From contig NZ_JACYOT010000005.1 of NCBI RefSeq assembly GCF_014858005.1, positions 186,001 to 250,000 on the forward strand: a stretch of 64,000 nucleotides of DNA, in the 5' to 3' direction. The notes under the pieces are model-generated. The model was given only the letters and a program-made list of their open reading frames with translations. It made no database searches and was not told where the DNA came from. The DNA comes from Propioniciclava soli. GTDB taxonomy: Bacteria; Actinomycetota; Actinomycetes; Propionibacteriales; Propionibacteriaceae. The position numbers were made by a program, and so were the translations under genes. Shown piece after piece: positions 1-44,820 of the stretch. Within the stretch, counting starts at the first letter, position 1. Each line of letters starts with the position of its first letter.

Positions 1-969
1 AATGCGGTCCAGGAGGCCCAGGAACGACGCGGGATCCCCGAAGCGGCGCATGCGACGGAGCACCGCGGGCGCCGCGTGCTGGAAGCTGAGGTCGAAATAG
101 GGCACGACCTTCTCCAGGCTGCACATCGTCTCGATCAGGCCCGGCCGGATCTCGGCCGGCTGCAGGTAGCTCACGCGGATCCACTCCAGGCCGTCGATGC
201 GGTCGAGCTCGCCCAGGAGTCGTTCCAGCGCGCCCAGCTCACCGAGATCCTTGCCGTAGGACGATGTGTTCTCGCTCACCAGGAACGCCTCGCGCACCCC
301 CTGCCCGACGAGCTGGCGCACCTCGGCCACCACGTCGTCCACGCCGCGGCTCAGGAACGAGCCGCGGAAGCCCGGGATGGCGCAGAACGCGCAGCGCCGG
401 TCGCAGCCGGAGGCGATCTTCACCGCCGCGGACGGCCCGCCGGTCAGGCGTCGCCGCACCGGCCGCGGGCCGGACGCGGGCGCGAGGCCGTCCGGCAACG
501 CGCCCAGCCCGGGCACGACCACCCCGGACGCGGCCGGGCGGCGCGCGGCCGGTGCCACCGGGAGGAGACGCCGCCGGTCCGACGGCGTGTGGGCCTCGAC
601 GTGCGCCCCGGCCATCACGAGGCGGATCCGCTCGTCGATGTCGGCGTAGGCATCGAAGCCGAGGACGGCGTCCGCCTCGGGCAGCGCCTCGGCCAGCTCG
701 CGTCCGTACCGTTCGGCCATGCATCCGACCGCGACGACGCGCTGCGTCGGGCCGGCACCCTTCAGGTCGGCGGCAGCCAGGAGGGTGTCGATCGAGTCCT
801 TCTTGGCCGATTCGATGAAGCCGCACGTGTTGACGACGATGGCCTCGGCGTCGCCGGGCTCCTCGACCAGGGTGAACCCACCGGTCTCCAGCCGCCCGGC
901 CAGCTCGTCGGAGTCGACCTCGTTGCGGGCGCAGCCGAGGGACACGATGTGGACGCGGGTGGAGGTCAC
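1..969 (-). CDS. rimO: Ribosomal protein S12 methylthiotransferase RimO (3' end cut by window)
   Basis: Radical SAM enzyme that methylthiolates the conserved aspartate of ribosomal protein S12 (established family function). The visible 323 codons hold the N-terminal UPF0004 cluster ligands Cys13, Cys49 and Cys83 and the radical-SAM CxxxCxxC motif at Cys189, Cys193 and Cys196 (context [15 protein letters not shown]). The C-terminal TRAM domain lies beyond the window edge. The GTG start at 969 is six bases after a TACCCT hexamer (976-981 on this strand), so the transcript may be leaderless. The distinction from MiaB rests on overall sequence feel and on proximity to ftsK, the usual rimO neighbourhood in actinobacteria. 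Confidence 0.93.
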
Positions 970-1034
970 GCCGCAAGGGTATCCGGGGTGAGGAGCAGGT
1001 CGTTGCGTGCCCGCTCCACCCCGAGCCGGACGCC

Positions 1035-1069
1035 GACGAGCGGGAAGCCCCCAGGGCCTCCCGCTCGTC
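1035..1069 (-). terminator. Hairpin terminator after the SVSYG-repeat gene
   Basis: GACGAGCGGGA (1035-1045) pairs perfectly with 1059-1069, extended inward by four more pairs around a 3-base loop. It lies 14 bases beyond the stop of the minus-strand gene ending at 1083. There is no T-run, which is common for actinobacterial terminators. It also separates that gene from rimO. Confidence 0.65.
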
Positions 1070-1082
1070 CGCGGCCAGTCAC

Positions 1083-1364
1083 TCAGTACGAGACCGACCC
1101 GTACGACACCGAGCTCGAGGGTGCGGCGCCGTAGGAGACCGAACCGTACGACACGGAACCATAGGAGACCGACCCGTAGGAGACCGACCCGTACGACACC
1201 GACCCATAGGACACCGAGCTGGAGGGGGCGGCGCCGTAGGAGACCGAGCCGTACGAGACCGAATCGGGGGCCGAGCCGCCCGGCAGGGCGTAGGACACAC
1301 TGCCCAGGGCCAGGGCTCCGGCGGCGAGGGTGCCGGTGGCGGCGAGCGCGAGACGCTTGATCAT
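1083..1364 (-). CDS. Small secreted SVSYG-pentapeptide repeat protein (unknown function)
   Basis: A 93-residue protein I do not recognise. The ATG at 1364 is chosen because it follows GGGGA with about six bases spacing; an in-frame GTG at 1379 is an alternative. Residues 1-20 form a signal-peptide-like stretch (KR then Ala/Leu-rich). The rest is nearly all pentapeptide: two SVSYG units, AAPSS, six SVSYG units, AAPSS, then two more, the last ending SVSY at the stop. One stray SVSY sits at 22-25. Units vary silently in Val, second Ser, Tyr and Gly codons (GTC/GTG, TCC/TCG, TAC/TAT, GGC/GGG/GGT), which argues for selection on the protein. The gene stands alone between two hairpin terminators. 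An extracellular, self-associating or wall-associated role is only inference. Confidence 0.75.
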
Positions 1365-1416
1365 TTTTTCCCCAATCACTCAGTGTTCTTTGCCCACACG
1401 ATCTGCGGCGGTCACC

Positions 1417-1435
1417 GGTGTGGGTGATTCACACC
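1417..1435. promoter_or_regulatory. Inverted repeat upstream of the SVSYG gene
   Basis: GGTGTG and CACACC flank a 7-base centre, about 55 bases upstream of the secreted-repeat gene and downstream of a minus-strand TTGACT (its complement lies just above 1435). It could be an operator or part of the promoter. No convincing -10 box was assigned. Confidence 0.25.
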
Positions 1436-1541
1436 CTAGTCAACAGCGATCCGCGGCGTGAAGTTGAACACGGCGGGGGAGGAAGAAATTCACCCATGCG
1501 CCCCCCCTGGGCCCACCCATGGGGCCATCAGGGGGCGAAAC

Positions 1542-1568
1542 CGCCCCGGCTCGGCACGAGCCGGGGCG
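1542..1568 (-). terminator. Hairpin terminator after the aldo/keto reductase gene
   Basis: A perfect 12-bp stem (CGCCCCGGCTCG at 1542-1553 with 1557-1568) and a 3-base loop, starting 16 bases beyond the stop codon of the minus-strand gene at 1585. There is no U-tract. The adjoining 1436-1541 holds no gene I can support. Confidence 0.7.
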
Positions 1569-1584
1569 TCCGAGAGGGGCTCGC

Positions 1585-2478
1585 TCAGCGCTGCAACACT
1601 GCGGCGCTGATGCGCTCCACCTCGTCCTGCGTCAGGTCCAGTTCCATGGCCAGGGCCGAGTCGGTGATCGAGGCCGGTCGGGACGCACCCGGGATCGGGA
1701 TGACGTGGTCACCCAAGGCCAGTTCCCAGGCGAGCGTGACCTGCTGCGGGCTGACGCCGTGGGCGTCCGCCACCTGGGCGATCGCGGCGAAACGCTCGCC
1801 GACCGCTGCCGCTCCCCCGCCGGTGCCACCCAGCGGCGACCAGGGCAGGAAGGCGATGCCGTGCTCACCGCAGTGCTCCAACTCCGACAACGAGGTGTGG
1901 TTGAACTTCGGGGAGAACTCGTTCTGCACCGCCGCGAGCCCACCCTCGCCAAGCACCTCGAGGGCGATGTCGATCTCCTCGACGTTCGCGTTGGAGATCC
2001 CGATCTCGGCGATGAGGCCGTCGGCCTTCAGCTGCGCCAGCGCCTCGATGGCGTCGGCGTACACGCGGGTGCGATCCGGCCGGTGGAGGTAGTAGAGGTC
2101 GATCGTGTCGACCCCCAGGCGGGTGGCGGACGCCTCGGCCGCCCGGCGGAGGTGTGCGGGGGAGGCGTCCCGGCCCCAGCCGTCGGGCTCGTGGCGGGTG
2201 ATGCCGCCCTTGGTGGCCACGACGACCTCGCTGCGGTCGCCCGACCAGGCGGCCAGCGCCTCGGCGACGATCTCCTCGTTGTGGCCCACCGCGTCCCAAC
2301 TCGGGGCGTAGATGTCGGCGGTGTCGATGAGGCGGACGCCGGCGTCAAGGGCGGCGTGCACCGTGGCGATCCCCTGCTCGCGGGGCGTCGTCGTGCCGTC
2401 GTTGTTCATGGAGAACGGCATGGCCCCCAGGCCGAGGGGGGACACGCGGAACTGTCCGAGAGTGCGCTGCTTGGTCAT
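1585..2478 (-). CDS. Aldo/keto reductase
   Basis: NAD(P)H-dependent oxidoreductase of the AKR TIM-barrel family; the substrate cannot be told. The catalytic tetrad is visible: Asp52 and Tyr57 in DTADIY, Lys90 in ATKGG and His132 in YYLHRPD. A typical cofactor-binding tail (IPIPGASRPASI) lies near residue 260. The length of 297 residues is normal. The ATG at 2478 is preferred over a start nine bases upstream because TAGGGT (2486-2491) lies exactly seven bases before it, giving a leaderless transcript. It is monocistronic, ended by its own hairpin. Confidence 0.9.
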   Translation of the reverse strand: MTKQRTLGQFRVSPLGLGAMPFSMNNDGTTTPREQGIATVHAALDAGVRLIDTADIYAPSWDAVGHNEEIVAEALAAWSGDRSEVVVATKGGITRHEPDGWGRDASPAHLRRAAEASATRLGVDTIDLYYLHRPDRTRVYADAIEALAQLKADGLIAEIGISNANVEEIDIALEVLGEGGLAAVQNEFSPKFNHTSLSELEHCGEHGIAFLPWSPLGGTGGGAAAVGERFAAIAQVADAHGVSPQQVTLAWELALGDHVIPIPGASRPASITDSALAMELDLTQDEVERISAAVLQR

Positions 2479-2485
2479 GCAGCTC

Positions 2486-2491
2486 ACCCTA
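2486..2491 (-). promoter_or_regulatory. -10 box of the aldo/keto reductase gene
   Basis: TAGGGT on the minus strand, seven bases before the ATG at 2478, with no room for a ribosome binding site. No recognisable -35. Confidence 0.5.
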
Positions 2492-2505
2492 GTGCGCGTC
2501 GGAGC

Positions 2506-4953
2506 TCAGGCCTCCGCCAGGTTGGCCAGCACCTCGTCCAAGTCGTCGGGCTTGACGAGCACTTCGCGGGGCTTGCTGCCCTCGGACGGGCCAACGATGC
2601 CGCGGGTCTCCAGGATGTCCATGAGGCGTCCGGCCTTCGCGAACCCCACGCGCAGCTTGCGCTGCAGCATGGATGTCGAACCCAGCTGCAGGTTCACCAC
2701 GAGCTGGGCGGCCTCGAGGACGAGCTCGAGGTCGTCGCCGATGTCCTCGGCCACCTTGGTCGACTCCGCCGGCGCCGCCACGTCCTCGCGGTACTGCGGT
2801 GCGAGCTGCTCGGTGACGTGCTTCACGACCTCGCGGATCTCCGCTTCGGTGACCCAGGCGCCCTGCACGCGGACGGGCTTGGACGCCCCCATCGGCAGGA
2901 ACAGGCCGTCGCCCTGCCCGACGAGCTTCTCGGCGCCCGGCTGGTCGAGGATGACGCGCGAGTCGGTCATCGACGAGGTGGCGAACGCCAGGCGCGAGGG
3001 CACATTGGCCTTGATGAGGCCGGTGACGACGTCGGTCGAGGGGCGCTGCGTGGCCAGCACCAGGTGGATGCCGGCGGCGCGCGCGAGCTGGGTGATGCGG
3101 ACGATGGAGTCCTCGACGTCGCGCGGGGCGACCATCATGAGGTCGGCCAGCTCGTCGACGATCACCAGCAGATACGGGTAGGGCGCGAGCACGCGCTCGG
3201 AGCCGGGCGGCACGGTGACGGCGCCGGAGCGGACCGCCTTGTTGAAGTCGTCGATGTGCCGGAACCCGAAGGCGGCGAGATCGTCGTAGCGGGCGTCCAT
3301 CTCGCGGCAGACCCACTGCAGCGCCTCGGCCGCCTTCTTCGGGTTCGTGATGATCGGCGTCACCAGGTGCGGGATGCCCTCGTAGTTGGTGAGCTCCACG
3401 CGCTTGGGGTCGACCAGCAGCAGGCGCACCTCGTCCGGCGTCGCCCGCATGAGCAGCGAGGTGATCATCGAGTTCACGAAGCTCGACTTGCCGGAGCCGG
3501 TGGCGCCCGCGACGAGCAGGTGCGGCATCTTGGCCATGTTGGCCACGACGTAGCCGCCCTCGACGTCCTTGCCCAGGCCGACGGTCATGGGGTGGTGGTC
3601 GTTGCGGGCGCGGTTGCTGCGCAGCACGTCGCCCAGGCTGACGATCTCCTTGTCAGTGTTCGGGATCTCGACGCCGATGGCCGACTTGCCGGGGATGGGG
3701 CTCAGGATGCGGACGTCTGCGGACGCCACGGCGTAGGCGATGTTGCGGCCGAGCGCGGTGACCTTCTCCACCTTGACGCCCTGGCCCAGCTCCACCTCGT
3801 AGCGCGTGACCGTCGGCCCCCGCGTGTAGCCGGTGACCTGGGCGTCGATGTCGAACTGGCTGAACACCTCGGCCAGGCGCCCCACGATGGCGTCGGACGC
3901 CTCCGTGCGGGCCTTGGGCGCCGTGCCGGCCTTGAGGCTGGTGGATTCCGGCAGCACGTACTGGACGTCGCCGGTGAGCACGAGCTGCTCCGCGCGCAGC
4001 GGTTCGTTGGAGTGTTCGGGCGGCTGCAGGTCCTTCGGCGGGTCGACCGTCACGGGCGCCTTGCCGGCCGTGACCGGCGGGGCCGCCACCGAGGCGATGC
4101 GCTCCTCGGGAACGACCTCGCCGTCGACCACGTCGGCGTCCGAGGCGTAGAGCTGGAGCCGATCCTCGACCAGCGGGCTGTCGTAGGCCTCGTCCACGCC
4201 GTAGGTGAGCTCGGGGCGCTCGGGACGCTGCGGCAGCCGGGCGCGCAGCGCCGCGAGGCGCTGCGGGAATTCCCGCAGCGGGATGCCGGTGATCACCAGC
4301 AGACCGAAGAGGCTGATCAGCACCAGCACGGGCACGGCGACCCACCGGGTGAGCAGGTCGGCGAGGAACGAGCTGGAGATGAAGCCGAGGATGCCGCCGG
4401 CGGCCTGCATCTGCTCGGCCTGGGACGGTGTGGGCAGCCCGCGGGCGATGCTGATGAGGCCGAGGACGCCGAGGGCGAGGGTCAGCCACCCCACCGGCTG
4501 GCGGCCGGCGGGGCCGTTGGCCTCGGGGTCGCGCAGCGTGCGCCACGCCAAGGCCCAGCAGGCGAGCGGGACGGCGACGGCGGCCGAGCCGACGATCGTG
4601 GCGATGCCGACGCGCAGCGCGTCCCCGACCGCACCGGGGAGCATGAACCAGAACGCCGCCGCGACGAGCGCGCCGAGCACCAGCAGAGCGAGGCCGGTGC
4701 CGTCGCGCCGCTTCTCGGGGTCGAGCTGGCGATCCGGCGAGCCCAGGCTGCGCACGAGGCGTCCGGTGGCGTGGGCCAGCGCCATCCAGACCGCGGCGAT
4801 GCCGCGTCCGAGCGCGGCCAGGACGGCCGTGAAGCCGCCCCCGCTGTTCGCGGGGGCGCGCTTGGAGGAGTTCGATGAGCTTCGGCCACGAGAAGACGAC
4901 GAACGGGGTGCGTTCGATCGGCTCCGCGTGGGGGAAGACGCGCGGGTCGCCAT
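2506..4953 (-). CDS. ftsK: DNA translocase FtsK/SpoIIIE
   Basis: Septal DNA pump that clears and resolves chromosome termini during division (known for the family). The 815-residue protein has a basic Ser/Arg-rich N-terminus, about four membrane helices in residues 70-250, a Pro-rich linker, and the motor domain with Walker A GATGSGKS near residue 482 and Walker B LLVIVDELADL. The C-terminal gamma winged helix (about residues 740-800, with FAKAGRLMD) would read KOPS-like sites. The start ATG at 4953 follows TAGGGT by seven bases. It is ten bases downstream of thiL, so it may be read both from the ddl-thiL operon and from its own leaderless promoter. Confidence 0.95.
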   Translation of the reverse strand: MATRASSPTRSRSNAPRSSSSRGRSSSNSSKRAPANSGGGFTAVLAALGRGIAAVWMALAHATGRLVRSLGSPDRQLDPEKRRDGTGLALLVLGALVAAAFWFMLPGAVGDALRVGIATIVGSAAVAVPLACWALAWRTLRDPEANGPAGRQPVGWLTLALGVLGLISIARGLPTPSQAEQMQAAGGILGFISSSFLADLLTRWVAVPVLVLISLFGLLVITGIPLREFPQRLAALRARLPQRPERPELTYGVDEAYDSPLVEDRLQLYASDADVVDGEVVPEERIASVAAPPVTAGKAPVTVDPPKDLQPPEHSNEPLRAEQLVLTGDVQYVLPESTSLKAGTAPKARTEASDAIVGRLAEVFSQFDIDAQVTGYTRGPTVTRYEVELGQGVKVEKVTALGRNIAYAVASADVRILSPIPGKSAIGVEIPNTDKEIVSLGDVLRSNRARNDHHPMTVGLGKDVEGGYVVANMAKMPHLLVAGATGSGKSSFVNSMITSLLMRATPDEVRLLLVDPKRVELTNYEGIPHLVTPIITNPKKAAEALQWVCREMDARYDDLAAFGFRHIDDFNKAVRSGAVTVPPGSERVLAPYPYLLVIVDELADLMMVAPRDVEDSIVRITQLARAAGIHLVLATQRPSTDVVTGLIKANVPSRLAFATSSMTDSRVILDQPGAEKLVGQGDGLFLPMGASKPVRVQGAWVTEAEIREVVKHVTEQLAPQYREDVAAPAESTKVAEDIGDDLELVLEAAQLVVNLQLGSTSMLQRKLRVGFAKAGRLMDILETRGIVGPSEGSKPREVLVKPDDLDEVLANLAEA

Positions 4954-4960
4954 GGCGACG

Positions 4961-4966
4961 ACCCTA
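4961..4966 (-). promoter_or_regulatory. Putative internal -10 box for ftsK, overlapping the thiL stop codon
   Basis: TAGGGT on the minus strand. Its first three bases are the TAG stop of thiL, except that the stop occupies 4966-4964; the ATG of ftsK follows seven bases later. The spacing matches other leaderless starts in the window. No clear -35. Confidence 0.4.
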
Positions 4967-6016
4967 ACAAGGCCCGGGACCCCGGTCGAGCGTCCACGCC
5001 GCCGGTCGCGGCGTCCGGCTACCAGGGTGGGCTCGGAAGTGCCGCCAGCCGCCGGAGCTGTCGTCACTGTCCCAGGGAGCGCCGTCCACGGTCACGGGGT
5101 GGGCCAGGTCGTCGGCGTCCGTGGCGTCCTCGGCGGGCAGGACGCGGCCCACGACGAACCAACCCGCGGGGACGGCGTCGGCGTCCGGGAAGGTCGCGAG
5201 CAACGCATGGTCGTCGCCGCCGGTGAGCACGTACCCGAGGGGGTCTCCCCCGCCGATCGCCGCCGCGACCGTCTGCTGGGCCTCCCCCACCTCGAAGGCG
5301 GAGCTGTCGAGGTCGATGCGGACGCCGGACGCGCGGGCCACGTGCCCGAGATCGGCCAGCGGCCCGTCGGAGCAGTCGATGAGGCTCGTGGCGCCGGCGT
5401 CCGCCGCCACGCGGCCCTGGCCGTAGGGCACCTCGGGCACGCGGTGGGCGCGGACGACCGCGCCCGGCGACCGGAACCCGCGGGCCAGCACCGCGAGGCC
5501 GGCGGCGGCCATGCCGAAGCGGCCGACGGCCGCCACCACGTCGCCCGGGCGGGCGCCGGAGCGCAGCAACGGGGGGCGTCCGCCGAGGTCGCCGAACACC
5601 GTGACGACCACCGCGATCGCGGCGCCCCGGGTCACGTCGCCGCCCATCAGGACGGCCCCGGCCAGGCCGCACTCCTCGGCGACGCCGCGGCCGAACTCCA
5701 GCACCCAGTCGGCTGGGGTGGCGGCGGGGCAGCTCAGCGCGACGACGATGCCCACCGGGCGAGCGGCCATGGCCTCCAGGTCGGCCACCGCCGAGCCGAC
5801 GGCCTTGCGCCCCACGTCGTGCGGGCCCGACCACACCTTCTTGAAGTGGACGTCCTCCACCATCGCGTCGGTGGAGACGACGACGTCGCCGTCCGGGGTG
5901 AACACGGCGGCGTCGTCCCCGGGGCCGACGCGGAGGGCGTCCGAGGTGGCCAGGCCGGCGGTGAGCGCCTCGATGAGCCCGAACTCGCCGAGCTCGTCGA
6001 CCGTGCGAGCCGCCAT
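4964..6016 (-). CDS. thiL: Thiamine-monophosphate kinase
   Basis: ATP-dependent kinase that makes thiamine diphosphate from thiamine monophosphate in the cytosol. The 350-residue AIR-synthase-related fold shows the Mg/ATP loop GPGDDAAVF (residues 31-39), STDAMVEDVHF, the GGDVTRG loop and SLIDCSDG. The ATG at 6016 overlaps the ddl stop as TGATG, indicating translational coupling. The C-terminal 30 residues are divergent and Arg/Pro-rich. The ddl-thiL pairing is common in actinobacteria. Confidence 0.93.
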   Translation of the reverse strand: MAARTVDELGEFGLIEALTAGLATSDALRVGPGDDAAVFTPDGDVVVSTDAMVEDVHFKKVWSGPHDVGRKAVGSAVADLEAMAARPVGIVVALSCPAATPADWVLEFGRGVAEECGLAGAVLMGGDVTRGAAIAVVVTVFGDLGGRPPLLRSGARPGDVVAAVGRFGMAAAGLAVLARGFRSPGAVVRAHRVPEVPYGQGRVAADAGATSLIDCSDGPLADLGHVARASGVRIDLDSSAFEVGEAQQTVAAAIGGGDPLGYVLTGGDDHALLATFPDADAVPAGWFVVGRVLPAEDATDADDLAHPVTVDGAPWDSDDSSGGWRHFRAHPGSRTPRPAAWTLDRGPGPC

Positions 6017-7134
6017 CAGCGCAGCCCCATGGGCCGGTGGAGGGCCAGCTCGATGAGTTCGGCGATGAGATCGGGGTACGCGAGGCCGGTCGCCTCCCAC
6101 AGCTTCGGGTACATCGAGAGGTAGGTGAAGCCGGGCATGGTGTTGAGCTCGTTGACGAAGATCTCCTCGTCGGGGGTCACAAAGAGGTCGACGCGGGAGA
6201 GCCCTTCGGCGCCCATGGCGGTGAAGGTGCGCGCGGCGATCCGCTGCACGCGGGCGAGCAGGGCGTCGGAGAGGTCGGCGGGGACGTCGAGGTCCACCTG
6301 CCCCTCGGGGGTGTACTTGGCCTCGTAGTCGTAGAACGCGTCGGCGGTGTGCATGCGGATCTCCCCGGCCAGCGAGACCCGCGGCGGGCCGTCGAGTGAG
6401 TCGAGCACGGCGAGCTCGATCTCGCGGGCCCCCACGAAGCCCTGCTCGACGACCACCTTGGGATCCCAGGTGAGCGCGTCCTCGACGCAGGCCGCGAGCT
6501 CGTCGATGCCGGCCGCCCGCGAGATGCCCACCGACGAGCCGCCGCGCGCGGGCTTCACGTAGACGGGGAAGGCCAGGTTGTCCTCGATGCGCCGGGTCAG
6601 GCGCGCGGAATCCTCCGCCCAGGCGTGGGCCGTGACCGTGACCCACGGGCAGGTGGGCAGCCCGGCCGAGACCAACCCGGCCTTCATCAGGTCCTTGTCC
6701 ATCGACATGGCGGACGCCGCCACCCCGGCCCCCACGTAGCGCAGCCCGTGCATCTCAAACAGCCCCTGCAGGGTGCCGTCCTCCCCGAAGGGCCCGTGCA
6801 GCAGGGCGAACACGACGTCGAAGTCGCGGGCGTCGACGAGCGTGTCGCCGTCCAGCGTCGCGATGCGCCCACCGCGGGCGGTGGGGACCAGGACGGCCGT
6901 CGGCCGGTCCTCGTCCAGGCGCGGCAGCCGGCCGTCCTCGACGGCGAGCGACGCCATCTCGTCGGTGGACACCTGCACCCACCGGCCCGAGGGCGTGATG
7001 CCGATGCCGACCACCTCGAACCGCTCGGCGTCGATCGCGCGCGTCACCCCGCCGGCGGTGAGGCAGGAGACGTCATGCTCGGAGCTCACGCCCCCGAAGA
7101 TGATCGCGACGCGTGTGCGGGAGACCTGCCGCAT
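6016..7134 (-). CDS. ddl: D-alanine--D-alanine ligase
   Basis: Makes the D-Ala-D-Ala dipeptide for peptidoglycan precursors. This ATP-grasp enzyme of 372 residues has the N-terminal GGVSSEHDVS signature, HGPFGEDGTLQG, the YVGAGV segment, VKPARGGSSVG in the ATP-grasp domain and the FVNELNTMPGFT metal-binding motif. The ATG at 7134 is preceded by GAAAGGA at a good distance, which is preferred over the open frame extending ten codons upstream. First gene of ddl-thiL(-ftsK), divergent from the small gene at 7221. Confidence 0.95.
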   Translation of the reverse strand: MRQVSRTRVAIIFGGVSSEHDVSCLTAGGVTRAIDAERFEVVGIGITPSGRWVQVSTDEMASLAVEDGRLPRLDEDRPTAVLVPTARGGRIATLDGDTLVDARDFDVVFALLHGPFGEDGTLQGLFEMHGLRYVGAGVAASAMSMDKDLMKAGLVSAGLPTCPWVTVTAHAWAEDSARLTRRIEDNLAFPVYVKPARGGSSVGISRAAGIDELAACVEDALTWDPKVVVEQGFVGAREIELAVLDSLDGPPRVSLAGEIRMHTADAFYDYEAKYTPEGQVDLDVPADLSDALLARVQRIAARTFTAMGAEGLSRVDLFVTPDEEIFVNELNTMPGFTYLSMYPKLWEATGLAYPDLIAELIELALHRPMGLR

Positions 7135-7220
7135 GTGGAGTTCCTTTCGGATGGCTGCCACCACACCCTAGCGAGCGCCGACGCGGCGTAGGCTCACGGC
7201 TCGTGGAGGAGACACGCGCT

Positions 7221-7391
7221 GTGACGGTGGGCCCGCCGGTGGAGGGGGGCTGGCGCGTCGTCGACGACGCCGGGCGCCCCTTGGTGCTGGCCCGCAGTGC
7301 CCTGGACGCCCGCCTGGTCAGCCTGAGGACCGGTCAGCGCCTGCTCGCCCGCATGCGAGCCGGTGCCATCGTGGCGGCGTCCCTCCCCTGA
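7221..7391 (+). CDS. Small hypothetical protein (56 aa)
   Basis: I do not recognise this family. The GTG at 7221 is chosen because GGAGGAG (7205-7211) lies nine bases upstream. A TAGGCT hexamer at 7189-7194 would start the message near 7201, leaving room for that site. The product has no signal peptide or membrane helix. It reads as a compact beta-rich domain (GGWRVVDDAGRPLVLARS) followed by a charged region ending RMRAGAIVAASLP. It is divergent from ddl. Codon usage is typical of the window, so it is likely real though unproven. Confidence 0.6.
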   Translation: MTVGPPVEGGWRVVDDAGRPLVLARSALDARLVSLRTGQRLLARMRAGAIVAASLP

Positions 7392-7416
7392 CCCTCGTGC
7401 GGCAATGCCATCTGTA

Positions 7417-7445
7417 TAGACACTGCGTATGGACGCGGGTAGTCT
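7417..7445 (+). promoter_or_regulatory. vapBC promoter (-35 TAGACA, -10 TAGTCT), leaderless
   Basis: TAGACA (7417-7422), a 17-base spacer and TAGTCT (7440-7445), with the vapB ATG seven bases further on. Both boxes match consensus well. The expected transcription start falls at or next to the A of the ATG. VapBC operons are often autoregulated at this position; a CTGTATAGACACTGCGTAT stretch here is a possible operator. Confidence 0.65.
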
Positions 7446-7452
7446 CACGCGC

Positions 7453-7707
7453 ATGGCGCTCAGCATTCGCAACCGGGAAACCGAGCAGGCCGTCCGCGCG
7501 TTGGCCTCGCGCACCGGTCTGACGCTCACCGAAGCGATCGACATGGCCGTCCGGGCACAACTTGACCTCACCGACGTTTCCGATGAGGCACGCGCAATCC
7601 GCGAGGCCCACCTGCATCGCGTGTTCGACGCGTGGCGGGAGGACCTCGACGTCACTGCGCTGCTGAGTGACGACGACCTGTATGACGAGGACGGGCTGCC
7701 GCGGTGA
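7453..7707 (+). CDS. vapB: VapB-type antitoxin
   Basis: Antitoxin and DNA-binding partner of the downstream PIN toxin. It has 84 residues with the MALSIRNRETEQAVRALASRTG opening typical of the Rv0623-like (PSK transcription factor) class, a ribbon-helix-helix-like N-terminus (MALS... TLTEAI) and an acidic C-terminal tail (LLSDDDLYDEDG) that would wrap the toxin. The ATG at 7453 rather than the upstream in-frame ATG at 7429 is set by family alignment and by the promoter, whose -10 ends seven bases before it. Its TGA overlaps the toxin GTG (GTGA). Confidence 0.88.
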   Translation: MALSIRNRETEQAVRALASRTGLTLTEAIDMAVRAQLDLTDVSDEARAIREAHLHRVFDAWREDLDVTALLSDDDLYDEDGLPR

Positions 7708-8084
7708 TCGTCGACACCTCGGCGCTCGTCGCCGTGCTTCGTGGAGAAGAGGCCGCAGCCTTGGTCCTGCGCGCCATGGCAGGCGAGGCGTCACACCAGA
7801 TGAGCGCGGCGACGCGCGTGGAACTGGGGTTGGTGCTGGGCGGGCAGCTCTCCGAGGACGACATCGATCGCCGTCTCGCCGAGCTTGGGATCGACGTGGT
7901 GGCCTTCACGCCGAAACAGGCACGGCTGGCGTCCGAGGGGCACCGCCGCTACGGCCGGGGTCACCACCGTGCCCGGTTGAACCTGGGCGACACCTTCTCG
8001 TACGCGCTCGCGCGCGACACCGGGTTCACCCTCCTCTGCGTGGGCGACGACTTCCGGCGCACCGACCTGCCGGTCGCCCCGTAA
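7704..8084 (+). CDS. vapC: VapC-type PIN-domain toxin ribonuclease
   Basis: Type II toxin, a Mg-dependent endoribonuclease whose RNA target cannot be predicted from sequence. The four acidic PIN residues are present: Asp4 (MIVDTSALV), Glu40 (TRVELGLV), Asp96 (NLGDTFSYALA) and Asp115 (CVGDDF). The length of 126 residues is normal, and nothing suggests inactivation. The GTG start overlaps vapB by four bases. It is convergent with leuD, with a 56-bp palindrome between them. Confidence 0.9.
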   Translation: MIVDTSALVAVLRGEEAAALVLRAMAGEASHQMSAATRVELGLVLGGQLSEDDIDRRLAELGIDVVAFTPKQARLASEGHRRYGRGHHRARLNLGDTFSYALARDTGFTLLCVGDDFRRTDLPVAP

Positions 8085-43634: not shown

Positions 43635-44522
43635 GTGACCGGCCGCTTCGCTCCCAGCCCCACCTCCGATCTCCACCTCGGCAACCTGCGCACCGCGCTG
43701 CTCGCGTGGTTGATGGCGCGGCACGCCGGGGTCGACCATCTGGTGCGCATCGAAGATCTGGACGCCACCCGCGTCGCCGCAGCCCCCGAGGTCGCCGCCC
43801 GCCAGCTCGCCGACCTGGCCGCGCTCGGGCTGGACCACGACGGGGCGGTCGTGTGGCAGTCCGAGCGCGTCGCGCTGTACGCCGAGGCCGCCGCGTCGCT
43901 GCCCACCTACGAGTGCTACTGCACGCGGCGCGAAATCGCCGAGGCGGCGTCCGCGCCCCACGACGACGGGTACCGCCCCTACCCCGGCACGTGTCGCGAG
44001 CTGAGTGAGGCCGAGCGGGCCCGCCGGCGCGCGGAGCGACCGCCGGCGCTGCGGGTGGCGAGCGATCACCGCGCAGTGACCGTGCACGACCGCTGGGCCG
44101 GCGTGGTGACCGGGGTCGTGGACGACGTGGTGATCCGTCGCAACGACGGGGCCTGGGCCTACAACCTCGCGGTGGTGGTGGACGACCTCGCCCAGGGGGT
44201 GACCCAGGTGGTCCGCGGGGATGACCTGCTCTCCAGCTCGCCCCGCCAGGCCTGGCTGGCCCGGGCGCTGGGCGGGGTGGAGCCCACCTACGCGCACGTG
44301 GGTCTGGTGGTGAACGCCGAGGGCCAACGGCTGGCCAAGCGCGACGGCGCGGTCACCTTGGCCGACCTGGCCGCCGCCGGGTGGGACGCCGGCGCCGTCC
44401 TGGCCCTGCTGGGCGCCTCGCTGGGGTTGTGCGACGCGGCGGAGAGGGTCAGCGCCCGCGACCTGCTCGACCGGTTCGACCCGGACACGGTCGATCACGG
44501 CTCCTGGACCTGGCGCGGCTGA
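43635..44522 (+). CDS. gluQ: Glutamyl-Q tRNA(Asp) synthetase
   Basis: Truncated GluRS paralogue that attaches glutamate to queuosine of tRNA-Asp. It has 295 residues opening TGRFAPSPTSDLHLGNLR (HIGH region HLGN), a CxC plus C zinc site in YECYCTRRE ... PGTC, and the KMSKS-like LAKRDG near residue 237; there is no anticodon-binding domain. The GTG at 43635 gives the usual N-terminus; a GTG nine bases upstream is possible. A TTGAGT hexamer seven bases before may be its -10. Confidence 0.92.
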   Translation: MTGRFAPSPTSDLHLGNLRTALLAWLMARHAGVDHLVRIEDLDATRVAAAPEVAARQLADLAALGLDHDGAVVWQSERVALYAEAAASLPTYECYCTRREIAEAASAPHDDGYRPYPGTCRELSEAERARRRAERPPALRVASDHRAVTVHDRWAGVVTGVVDDVVIRRNDGAWAYNLAVVVDDLAQGVTQVVRGDDLLSSSPRQAWLARALGGVEPTYAHVGLVVNAEGQRLAKRDGAVTLADLAAAGWDAGAVLALLGASLGLCDAAERVSARDLLDRFDPDTVDHGSWTWRG

Positions 44523-44551: not shown

Positions 44552-44820
44552 CGTTGACGTCACCGCCCTGCCGCTGCGAGCGCCTCCCTGCCCGAAGCCC
44601 ACCACCCCAGCGTTGCAACAGCAGGGCGGTGCAGGTCGGGCAGGGCGGCGGCGCCAAGGACAGGGTGGCAGCGCCAAGGACAGGGTGGCAGCGCCAAGGA
44701 CAGGGTGGCAGCGTCAAGGACAGGGCGGCGGCGCCAAGGACAGGGTGGCAGCGTCAAGGGCAGGGTGGCAGCGTCAAGGGCAGGGTGGCGGCGCCAGCGG
44801 CAGGGCGGCGGCGCCGCCAG
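44552..44820. repeat. 20-bp minisatellite between gluQRS and photolyase
   Basis: Nine head-to-tail 20-base units from 44641 to 44820 follow CAGGGYGGCRGCGYCAAGGR, the last two decayed, with a weak further unit at 44622-44640. An inverted, diverged unit lies at 44552-44571. This fills the 306-base gap between the convergent genes and reaches to within nine bases of the photolyase stop. The 20-base period is not a multiple of three, so all frames stay open without implying a gene. Confidence 0.85.

Follow-up and report, generated by a model that had tools for sequence, protein, structure and literature searches.

Insect resilin carries exon-1 repeats of the form GGRPSDSYGAPGGGN, and native resilin contains dityrosine cross-links, as described in PMC7794388. 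Here we analyze a small gene of Propioniciclava soli, found in a window of 64,000 nucleotides (the whole stretch of DNA that was analyzed), whose predicted product shares several of these properties. Like resilin, the protein consists of tandem repeats containing Ser, Gly and Tyr, and, judging from its sequence, it would likewise be exported and disordered. The order SYG followed by A and P in resilin also locally resembles the SYGAAPSS of the new protein. The new protein does have Tyr-containing Gly/Ser repeats, with only four Pro residues among 93. Resilin differs in coming from insects, in having 15-residue units rich in Gly and Pro, and in carrying a chitin-binding domain; the likeness carries no claim of homology.

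LARKS have a Gly/Ser/aromatic composition. Aromatic residues embedded in Gly/Ser, the composition expected of LARKS and functional amyloids, are found in the SVSYG protein as well, and could in principle stack in inter-protein beta sheets as outlined for LARKS in PMC10477902; no homology is claimed. LARKS are irregular segments of intracellular eukaryotic RNA-binding proteins, whereas the SVSYG protein is bacterial, probably exported, and built from identical units that each contain a Val. The pentapeptide repeat families PF00805 and PF01469 have the same five-residue period. However, the only Pfam match of the SVSYG protein, to Pentapeptide_2 (PF01469; E 0.059), scores 13.7 bits where the cut-off is 26.4, PF00805 was not listed in that search, and single-sequence AlphaFold predicts no solenoid. 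YGQ-rich regions of longer actinobacterial proteins (for example loci L005, L010, L081 and L082) also place Tyr-Gly every five residues and are encoded by 15-base tandem arrays. In contrast to the SVSYG protein, they are rich in Gln and Pro, lie in longer frames, some of them beside hydrophobic membrane-like stretches, and are not simply a signal peptide plus repeats. In these four loci the top-phase share of differences is 0.46–0.61, so that the differences are spread more evenly over the codon phases than in the SVSYG array.

The SVSYG gene and its setting

The features discussed below are, in window coordinates:

1083..1364, minus strand: SVSYG-repeat open reading frame of 93 amino acids, with a signal-like N-terminus and an (SVSYG)n array with AAPSS spacers (sequence)
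1365..1375, minus strand: Shine-Dalgarno-like stretch TTGGGGAAAAA before the ATG (sequence; putative role)
1287..1364, minus strand: signal-peptide-like residues 1–26 (sequence and Kyte-Doolittle profile)
1086..1262, minus strand: repeat array, residues 35–93 (sequence, TRF)
1218..1232, minus strand: first AAPSS spacer, residues 45–49 (sequence)
1113..1127, minus strand: second AAPSS spacer, residues 80–84 (sequence)
1027..1077, minus strand: strong hairpin without a U-tract, between the SVSYG stop and rimO (folding of 73 nt)
1..969, minus strand: downstream neighbor, a rimO-like UPF0004 and radical-SAM protein cut by the window edge
1585..2475, minus strand: upstream neighbor, an aldo/keto reductase family protein
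ending at 44522: class I tRNA-synthetase-domain gene, 298 amino acids
44829–46220, minus strand: DNA photolyase gene

The SVSYG gene begins with an ATG at 1364 and ends with a TGA stop at 1085–1083. An alternative GTG start at 1379 would yield 98 amino acids; the ATG is favored because a GGGGA Shine-Dalgarno-like stretch lies immediately 5′ of it. The N-terminus consists of an MIKR n-region followed by a hydrophobic core, as seen in the sequence and its Kyte-Doolittle hydropathy. An earlier reading of the sequence alone had described a secreted protein with a signal-like N-terminus, and sequence and hydropathy bear this out insofar as the segment is signal-like; the protein is probably exported. 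Two cleavage sites are possible, one after ALA (residue 19) and one after SYA (residue 26). Either would leave a mature chain, ~67–74 residues long and made of Ser, Tyr, Gly, Val and Ala, that lacks cysteine and has a single charged side chain, an Asp. Past residue 4, the protein has one acidic residue, this Asp, and no basic ones. The 93 residues include 27 Ser, 14 Gly, 13 Ala, 11 Tyr and 11 Val, and only two Thr. The protein sequence shows no sortase motif and no wall-binding domain, nor does it have a visible second transmembrane stretch.

The array, which TRF detected independently at 1086–1262 with a period of 15, comprises nine complete SVSYG units, a final C-terminal SVSY and two in-register AAPSS spacers in the order 2-6-2. 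The two spacers and the symmetrical layout had been correctly recognized in the sequence-only reading. Its count of ten SVSYG units holds for nine; the tenth lacks its Gly because the stop follows directly after ...SVSY. A further SVSY lies at residues 22–25, inside or just past the signal peptide (codons AGT GTG TCC TAC), and brings the total to 11, ten in the array and one in the signal region. Because each AAPSS spacer is itself five residues long, the register is held through twelve pentads, the last of them incomplete. The spacers differ from one another at two third positions only.

Downstream of the gene lies the UPF0004/radical-SAM gene, which we take to be rimO; an FtsK gene, in addition to the aldo/keto reductase gene, lies upstream. 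The hairpin 3′ of the SVSYG gene is probably the transcription end; the 73 nt folded have an energy of −52 kcal/mol, with a z of −5.5 and none of 200 shuffles as stable. The gene had been credited with its own ribosome binding site and terminator. A Shine-Dalgarno-like stretch and a strong hairpin are indeed in place, but the hairpin lacks a U-tract and is absent from the output of a simple terminator scan, the sole hit of which is on the plus strand at 1343–1359. A simple scan for a sigma-70-type promoter of the SVSYG gene found none, and no RNA family reached gathering scores in window positions 1–8000.

Three further elements were seen in the window. An imperfect inverted repeat, GGTGTGAATCACCCACACC, lies on the minus strand at 1417–1435, ~50 bases upstream of the SVSYG ATG, and is a possible regulator site for the gene. 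A TANNNT-like hexamer lies a few bases upstream of where rimO starts, as TACCCT in the window and as TAGCCT in four other loci (L043, L044, L048 and L050), suggesting that rimO has a promoter of its own and a leaderless transcript. At 44641–44815, ~9 tandem copies of the 20-base unit CAGGGTGGCAGCGCCAAGGA separate the class I tRNA-synthetase-domain gene, presumably of the glutamyl-Q type, from the DNA photolyase gene. The period of 20 is not a multiple of three, so this array is probably not coding.

Codon pattern within the array

The nine full units occur in seven DNA versions without a single amino-acid change. Only five of the 15 columns vary, and these are exactly the third codon positions; all ten columns at first and second positions are constant, and pairwise differences among the units number 0, 0 and 88 at codon positions 1, 2 and 3, respectively. 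The chance that five variable columns out of 15 all fall in one given phase is 1 in 3003. A larger 19-residue block, present twice, has five differences in 57 bases, all at third positions. The mean third-position mismatch in the array is 0.489, compared with 0.458 expected for independent draws within codon boxes, using the codons of four nearby genes. As the observed value is near that for independent draws, the synonymous sites look saturated on average, with the peptide unmoved. The mixing is uneven by column. The first Ser is less varied than expected (0.22 vs 0.55), Val (0.56 vs 0.52) and the second Ser (0.56 vs 0.55) lie close to expectation, and Tyr (0.39 vs 0.12) and Gly (0.72 vs 0.54) are more varied. 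Selection for codon diversity, stabilizing the array, could be an added source of this synonymous mixing. The GC3 of the gene, 0.89, is somewhat below, but near, the 0.93–0.96 of the four nearby genes.

Both serines of all ten array SVSY copies are encoded by TCN (20/20), unlike the AGT-starting copy at residues 22–25. Under independent codon choice, with AGY accounting for 25 of the 112 Ser codons of the four nearby genes, the chance of this outcome is 0.006, as would be expected if the array copies descend from a common ancestor. The array is thus a family of tandem duplicates, and the SVSY near the N-terminus does not appear to be a simple copy from it.

We compared the phase distribution with that of other fifteen-base arrays, 105 bases or longer, from the fetched loci, which are mostly hits to the SVSYG query and hence not a random sample. 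The top-phase share of differences in the SVSYG array, taken over 108 bases including the AAPSS edges, is 0.79, the highest of the 35 arrays listed; the 34 others range from 0.36 to 0.72. The next highest value in this list, 0.72 of differences in one phase, belongs to a 721-base array of fifteen-base period in another genome (G034, locus L019, 1317–2037), which reads as NSGTD repeats in one frame.

The substitution pattern is consistent with purifying selection at every residue of the SVSYG unit. The earlier proposal that the amino-acid pattern is selected thereby gains support, from the third-position-only differences among units and from the array comparison. We rejected an origin of the array by chance or slippage, given that the differences fall only on third positions and that the phase share lies above that of the 34 other listed arrays. 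Another strand or frame as the real gene was also rejected: the plus-strand frame rich in ETEPYDTEP carries stops, and in the remaining open readings the variation would fall on residue-changing positions. The open reading frame is a real orphan gene that has probably been selected.

Relatives and the syntenic site

Searching the genome itself with the SVSYG protein gave one match (E 1.4e-45), which served as a positive control. Among 57 genomes including this one, 44 gave some match at E ≤ 1, including nine of the 12 congeners (best E 3e-4). The only congeners passing E 1e-3 were G002 and G006, both with YGQ-type regions. From this search 29 loci besides the gene's own were inspected. Of the congener matches that had no locus there, those in G001, G009 and G010 were inspected separately (as L107, L108 and L105), but not the match in G005 (E 0.41) or that in G008 (E 0.35). 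The family search (198 genomes, 197 of them others) gave 11 other genomes with E ≤ 1e-3, the order sample (391 genomes) five others at E ≤ 1e-5, and the class sample (394 genomes) 15 others with a match. New loci were inspected where a match had a fetched locus, seven of nine from the family search and all 15 from the order and class samples. Judged by eye, the inspected loci are YGQ-rich regions, other five-residue arrays, other proteins and apparently out-of-frame readings; two at contig ends, L072 and L078, contain arrays of YGQ type and Ala/Arg/Glu type, respectively. Searched separately against the genus, the first 39 residues matched 16 places besides their own, at E 0.012 or worse, and the 15 inspected (all except L118) are other proteins. 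Among the inspected loci, therefore, no homologue of the SVSYG protein was recognized in the 12 congeners, the 197 other family genomes or the order and class samples.

An exact triple-unit pattern with TCN serines was found in none of 84,980 species, represented by one genome each; AGY codons, units that have drifted and contigs shorter than 3,000 bases escape this pattern, and the result is firmer than that of the tblastn-based locus search. That related-locus search matched 201 stretches and confirmed none, which is weak evidence since its tblastn step may mask low complexity. Plasmids and phages gave no tblastn match to the protein, with the same possible masking of low complexity, and the double-unit pattern had no occurrence in viral contigs. 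The sequence-only reading knew of no named family with this repeat, and we agree, having found none above cut-off or convincing in Pfam, NCBIfam, PHROGs or the PDB. No NCBIfam family reached its cut-off, the best PHROGs match (E 0.98) was taken as chance, and so was a PDB sequence match to a major virion protein (E 0.17). Judging by titles and the beginnings of abstracts, none of the literature matches listed concerns such a protein, which is not proof. The sequence-only reading had named the lack of a homologue with conserved signal peptide and repeat in related strains as a result that would speak against it, and at the species level the comparison came out this way, no homologue being recognized. 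The lack of a recognized homologue makes a between-species test of selection impossible. The gene is lineage-restricted, so far in one actinobacterial genome.

At the syntenic site, the reductase gene is followed by rimO in G001, G009 and G012, with about 25–111 bases between the two matches. Other genes stand between the two in G005 (a polysaccharide deacetylase gene) and G011 (an ABM-domain gene), and in G002, the nearest congener by rimO (89% identity), ftsK leads directly to rimO. In G003, G004, G008 and G010 rimO lies beside other genes, and in G006 and G007 the contig ends at the site. The SVSYG gene is thus absent from all six readable sites among the 12 congeners examined. The reductase–rimO spacer of G009 (L050) holds a short array of 22-base CGGGGCTCTCGGCGCGCAACAC-like units at the place that the SVSYG gene occupies in the window.

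The third-position difference between the window's rimO and that of G002 is 0.378 over 312 codons, and the internal mismatch of the SVSYG array, 0.49, is higher. The array may therefore predate that split, unless codon diversity itself is selected. As a hint rather than a date, this suggests that the array may have been lost in the G002 lineage or have arrived from elsewhere.

Possible roles of the SVSYG protein

Beyond the open reading frame and its selection, we infer the properties of the protein (export, self-association, location and cross-linking) from its sequence. The surface fiber, amyloid-like coat and tyrosine cross-linking substrate that the sequence-only reading offered as ideas to test stay proposals, which a sequence alone does not establish. 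Tentatively, at a probability of about 0.42, we take it to be an exported, disordered, self-associating tyrosine-sticker polymer of the envelope or matrix. A Sec-type signal peptide would carry the chain over the membrane, where the mature part may lack a stable monomer fold; single-sequence AlphaFold predicts no structural elements (pLDDT 40), a result of little weight for a repeat modeled with no alignment. Tyrosines five residues apart would act as stickers, spaced by Gly and Ser and interrupted by the two AAPSS pentads. This would let chains associate side by side, in a cross-beta or gel-like state, in the cell envelope or extracellular matrix. An oxidase may also link some of the tyrosines covalently. 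Multicopper-oxidase domains were detected in four frames of the genome, which keeps tyrosine oxidation possible. A DyP peroxidase was not found in the genome by a search whose controls matched in three of 14 genomes, and a tyrosinase search, in which no control matched, was uninformative.

In favor of the sticker polymer, the Ser/Gly/Tyr composition is the make-up of sticker-spacer chains, and we also count the synonymous-only differences among the nine full units and in the duplicated block, the top-phase share of the array, the ribosome-binding-site-like stretch, the downstream hairpin, the hydrophobic core of the N-terminus and the four multicopper-oxidase frames. Counted against it is that the searches above recognized no homologue, DyP peroxidase, predicted fold, sigma-70-type promoter, sortase motif or wall-binding domain, as is the uneven synonymous mixing by column. 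The exact identity of the units also exceeds the needs of a sticker-spacer polymer; such regions usually tolerate drift.

Part of this evidence bears on other explanations. The array may have been selected in the past or elsewhere, with horizontal arrival, and have little present role in this strain. We consider such a former or marginal gene unlikely: the absence of a recognized relative in the congeners and of the gene from their readable syntenic sites, the excess of array mismatch (0.49) over the rimO difference from G002 (0.38), by which the array may be older than the split, and the lack of a promoter in the simple scan all speak for it, but the reading frame is intact, no unit has drifted in protein, the Shine-Dalgarno-like stretch and hairpin are in place and GC3 stays near that of the nearby genes. 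The strict identity of the units would suit a multi-copy precursor, in which an exported chain would be cut outside the cell by a protease into identical GSVSY or SVSYG signal or modified peptides. Such a precursor could also account for the 11 SVSY copies, one of them outside the array with different codons, and for a chain that terminates exactly in ...GSVSY. The Phr proteins of Bacillus are exported pentapeptide pro-signals, and the Sec-type leader of the SVSYG protein would be analogous to theirs. No obvious protease site separates the units, however, and the nearest genes (rimO-like, aldo/keto reductase and ftsK), to which the inspection for a Phr-like adjacent receptor gene was confined, include no receptor, transporter or modifying enzyme. 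We know of no actinobacterial cases of multi-copy peptide precursors of this type and regard the idea as improbable.

With Ser making up 27 of 93 residues, the protein might instead be mucin-like, a surface or secreted protein whose serines are O-mannosylated by an actinobacterial protein mannosyltransferase after Sec export, the serines and Ala-Pro-Ser-Ser spacers giving a stiff, hydrated glycopeptide. According to PMC12757957, proteins secreted by the Sec or TAT route receive mannose on Ser or Thr, and the actinobacterial mannosyltransferase has a proline-recognition region; both statements would suit this proposal. The genome contains a PMT-domain match (PF02366, E 1.4e-9, 38.4 bits, cut-off 22.7) in a 543-amino-acid frame, but PF02366 also matches eight of 14 control genomes, so its presence says little. 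Pro and Thr are scarce, and glycosylation alone gives no reason for every unit to keep its V, Y and G; we consider the mucin-like protein unlikely. A pentapeptide-repeat solenoid, in which the five-residue period would fold as a quadrilateral beta-helix with Tyr or Val inward, is the least probable of these explanations. The period is kept across the spacers and the Pentapeptide_2 match, weak as it is, points the same way, yet that match falls below cut-off and the single-sequence AlphaFold model contains no solenoid. The classic pentapeptide family has the residue pattern A(D/N)LXX, which is absent from the SVSYG units.

The SVSYG protein is a clean orphan case: its mature part is nearly all one pentapeptide, and its gene, for which no homologue was recognized, passes a test of selection internal to the array. 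The within-array codon test can help separate real repeat proteins from slippage arrays among orphans. Should the protein prove to self-assemble, it would offer a minimal tyrosine-sticker polymer in a bacterium, accessible to genetics.
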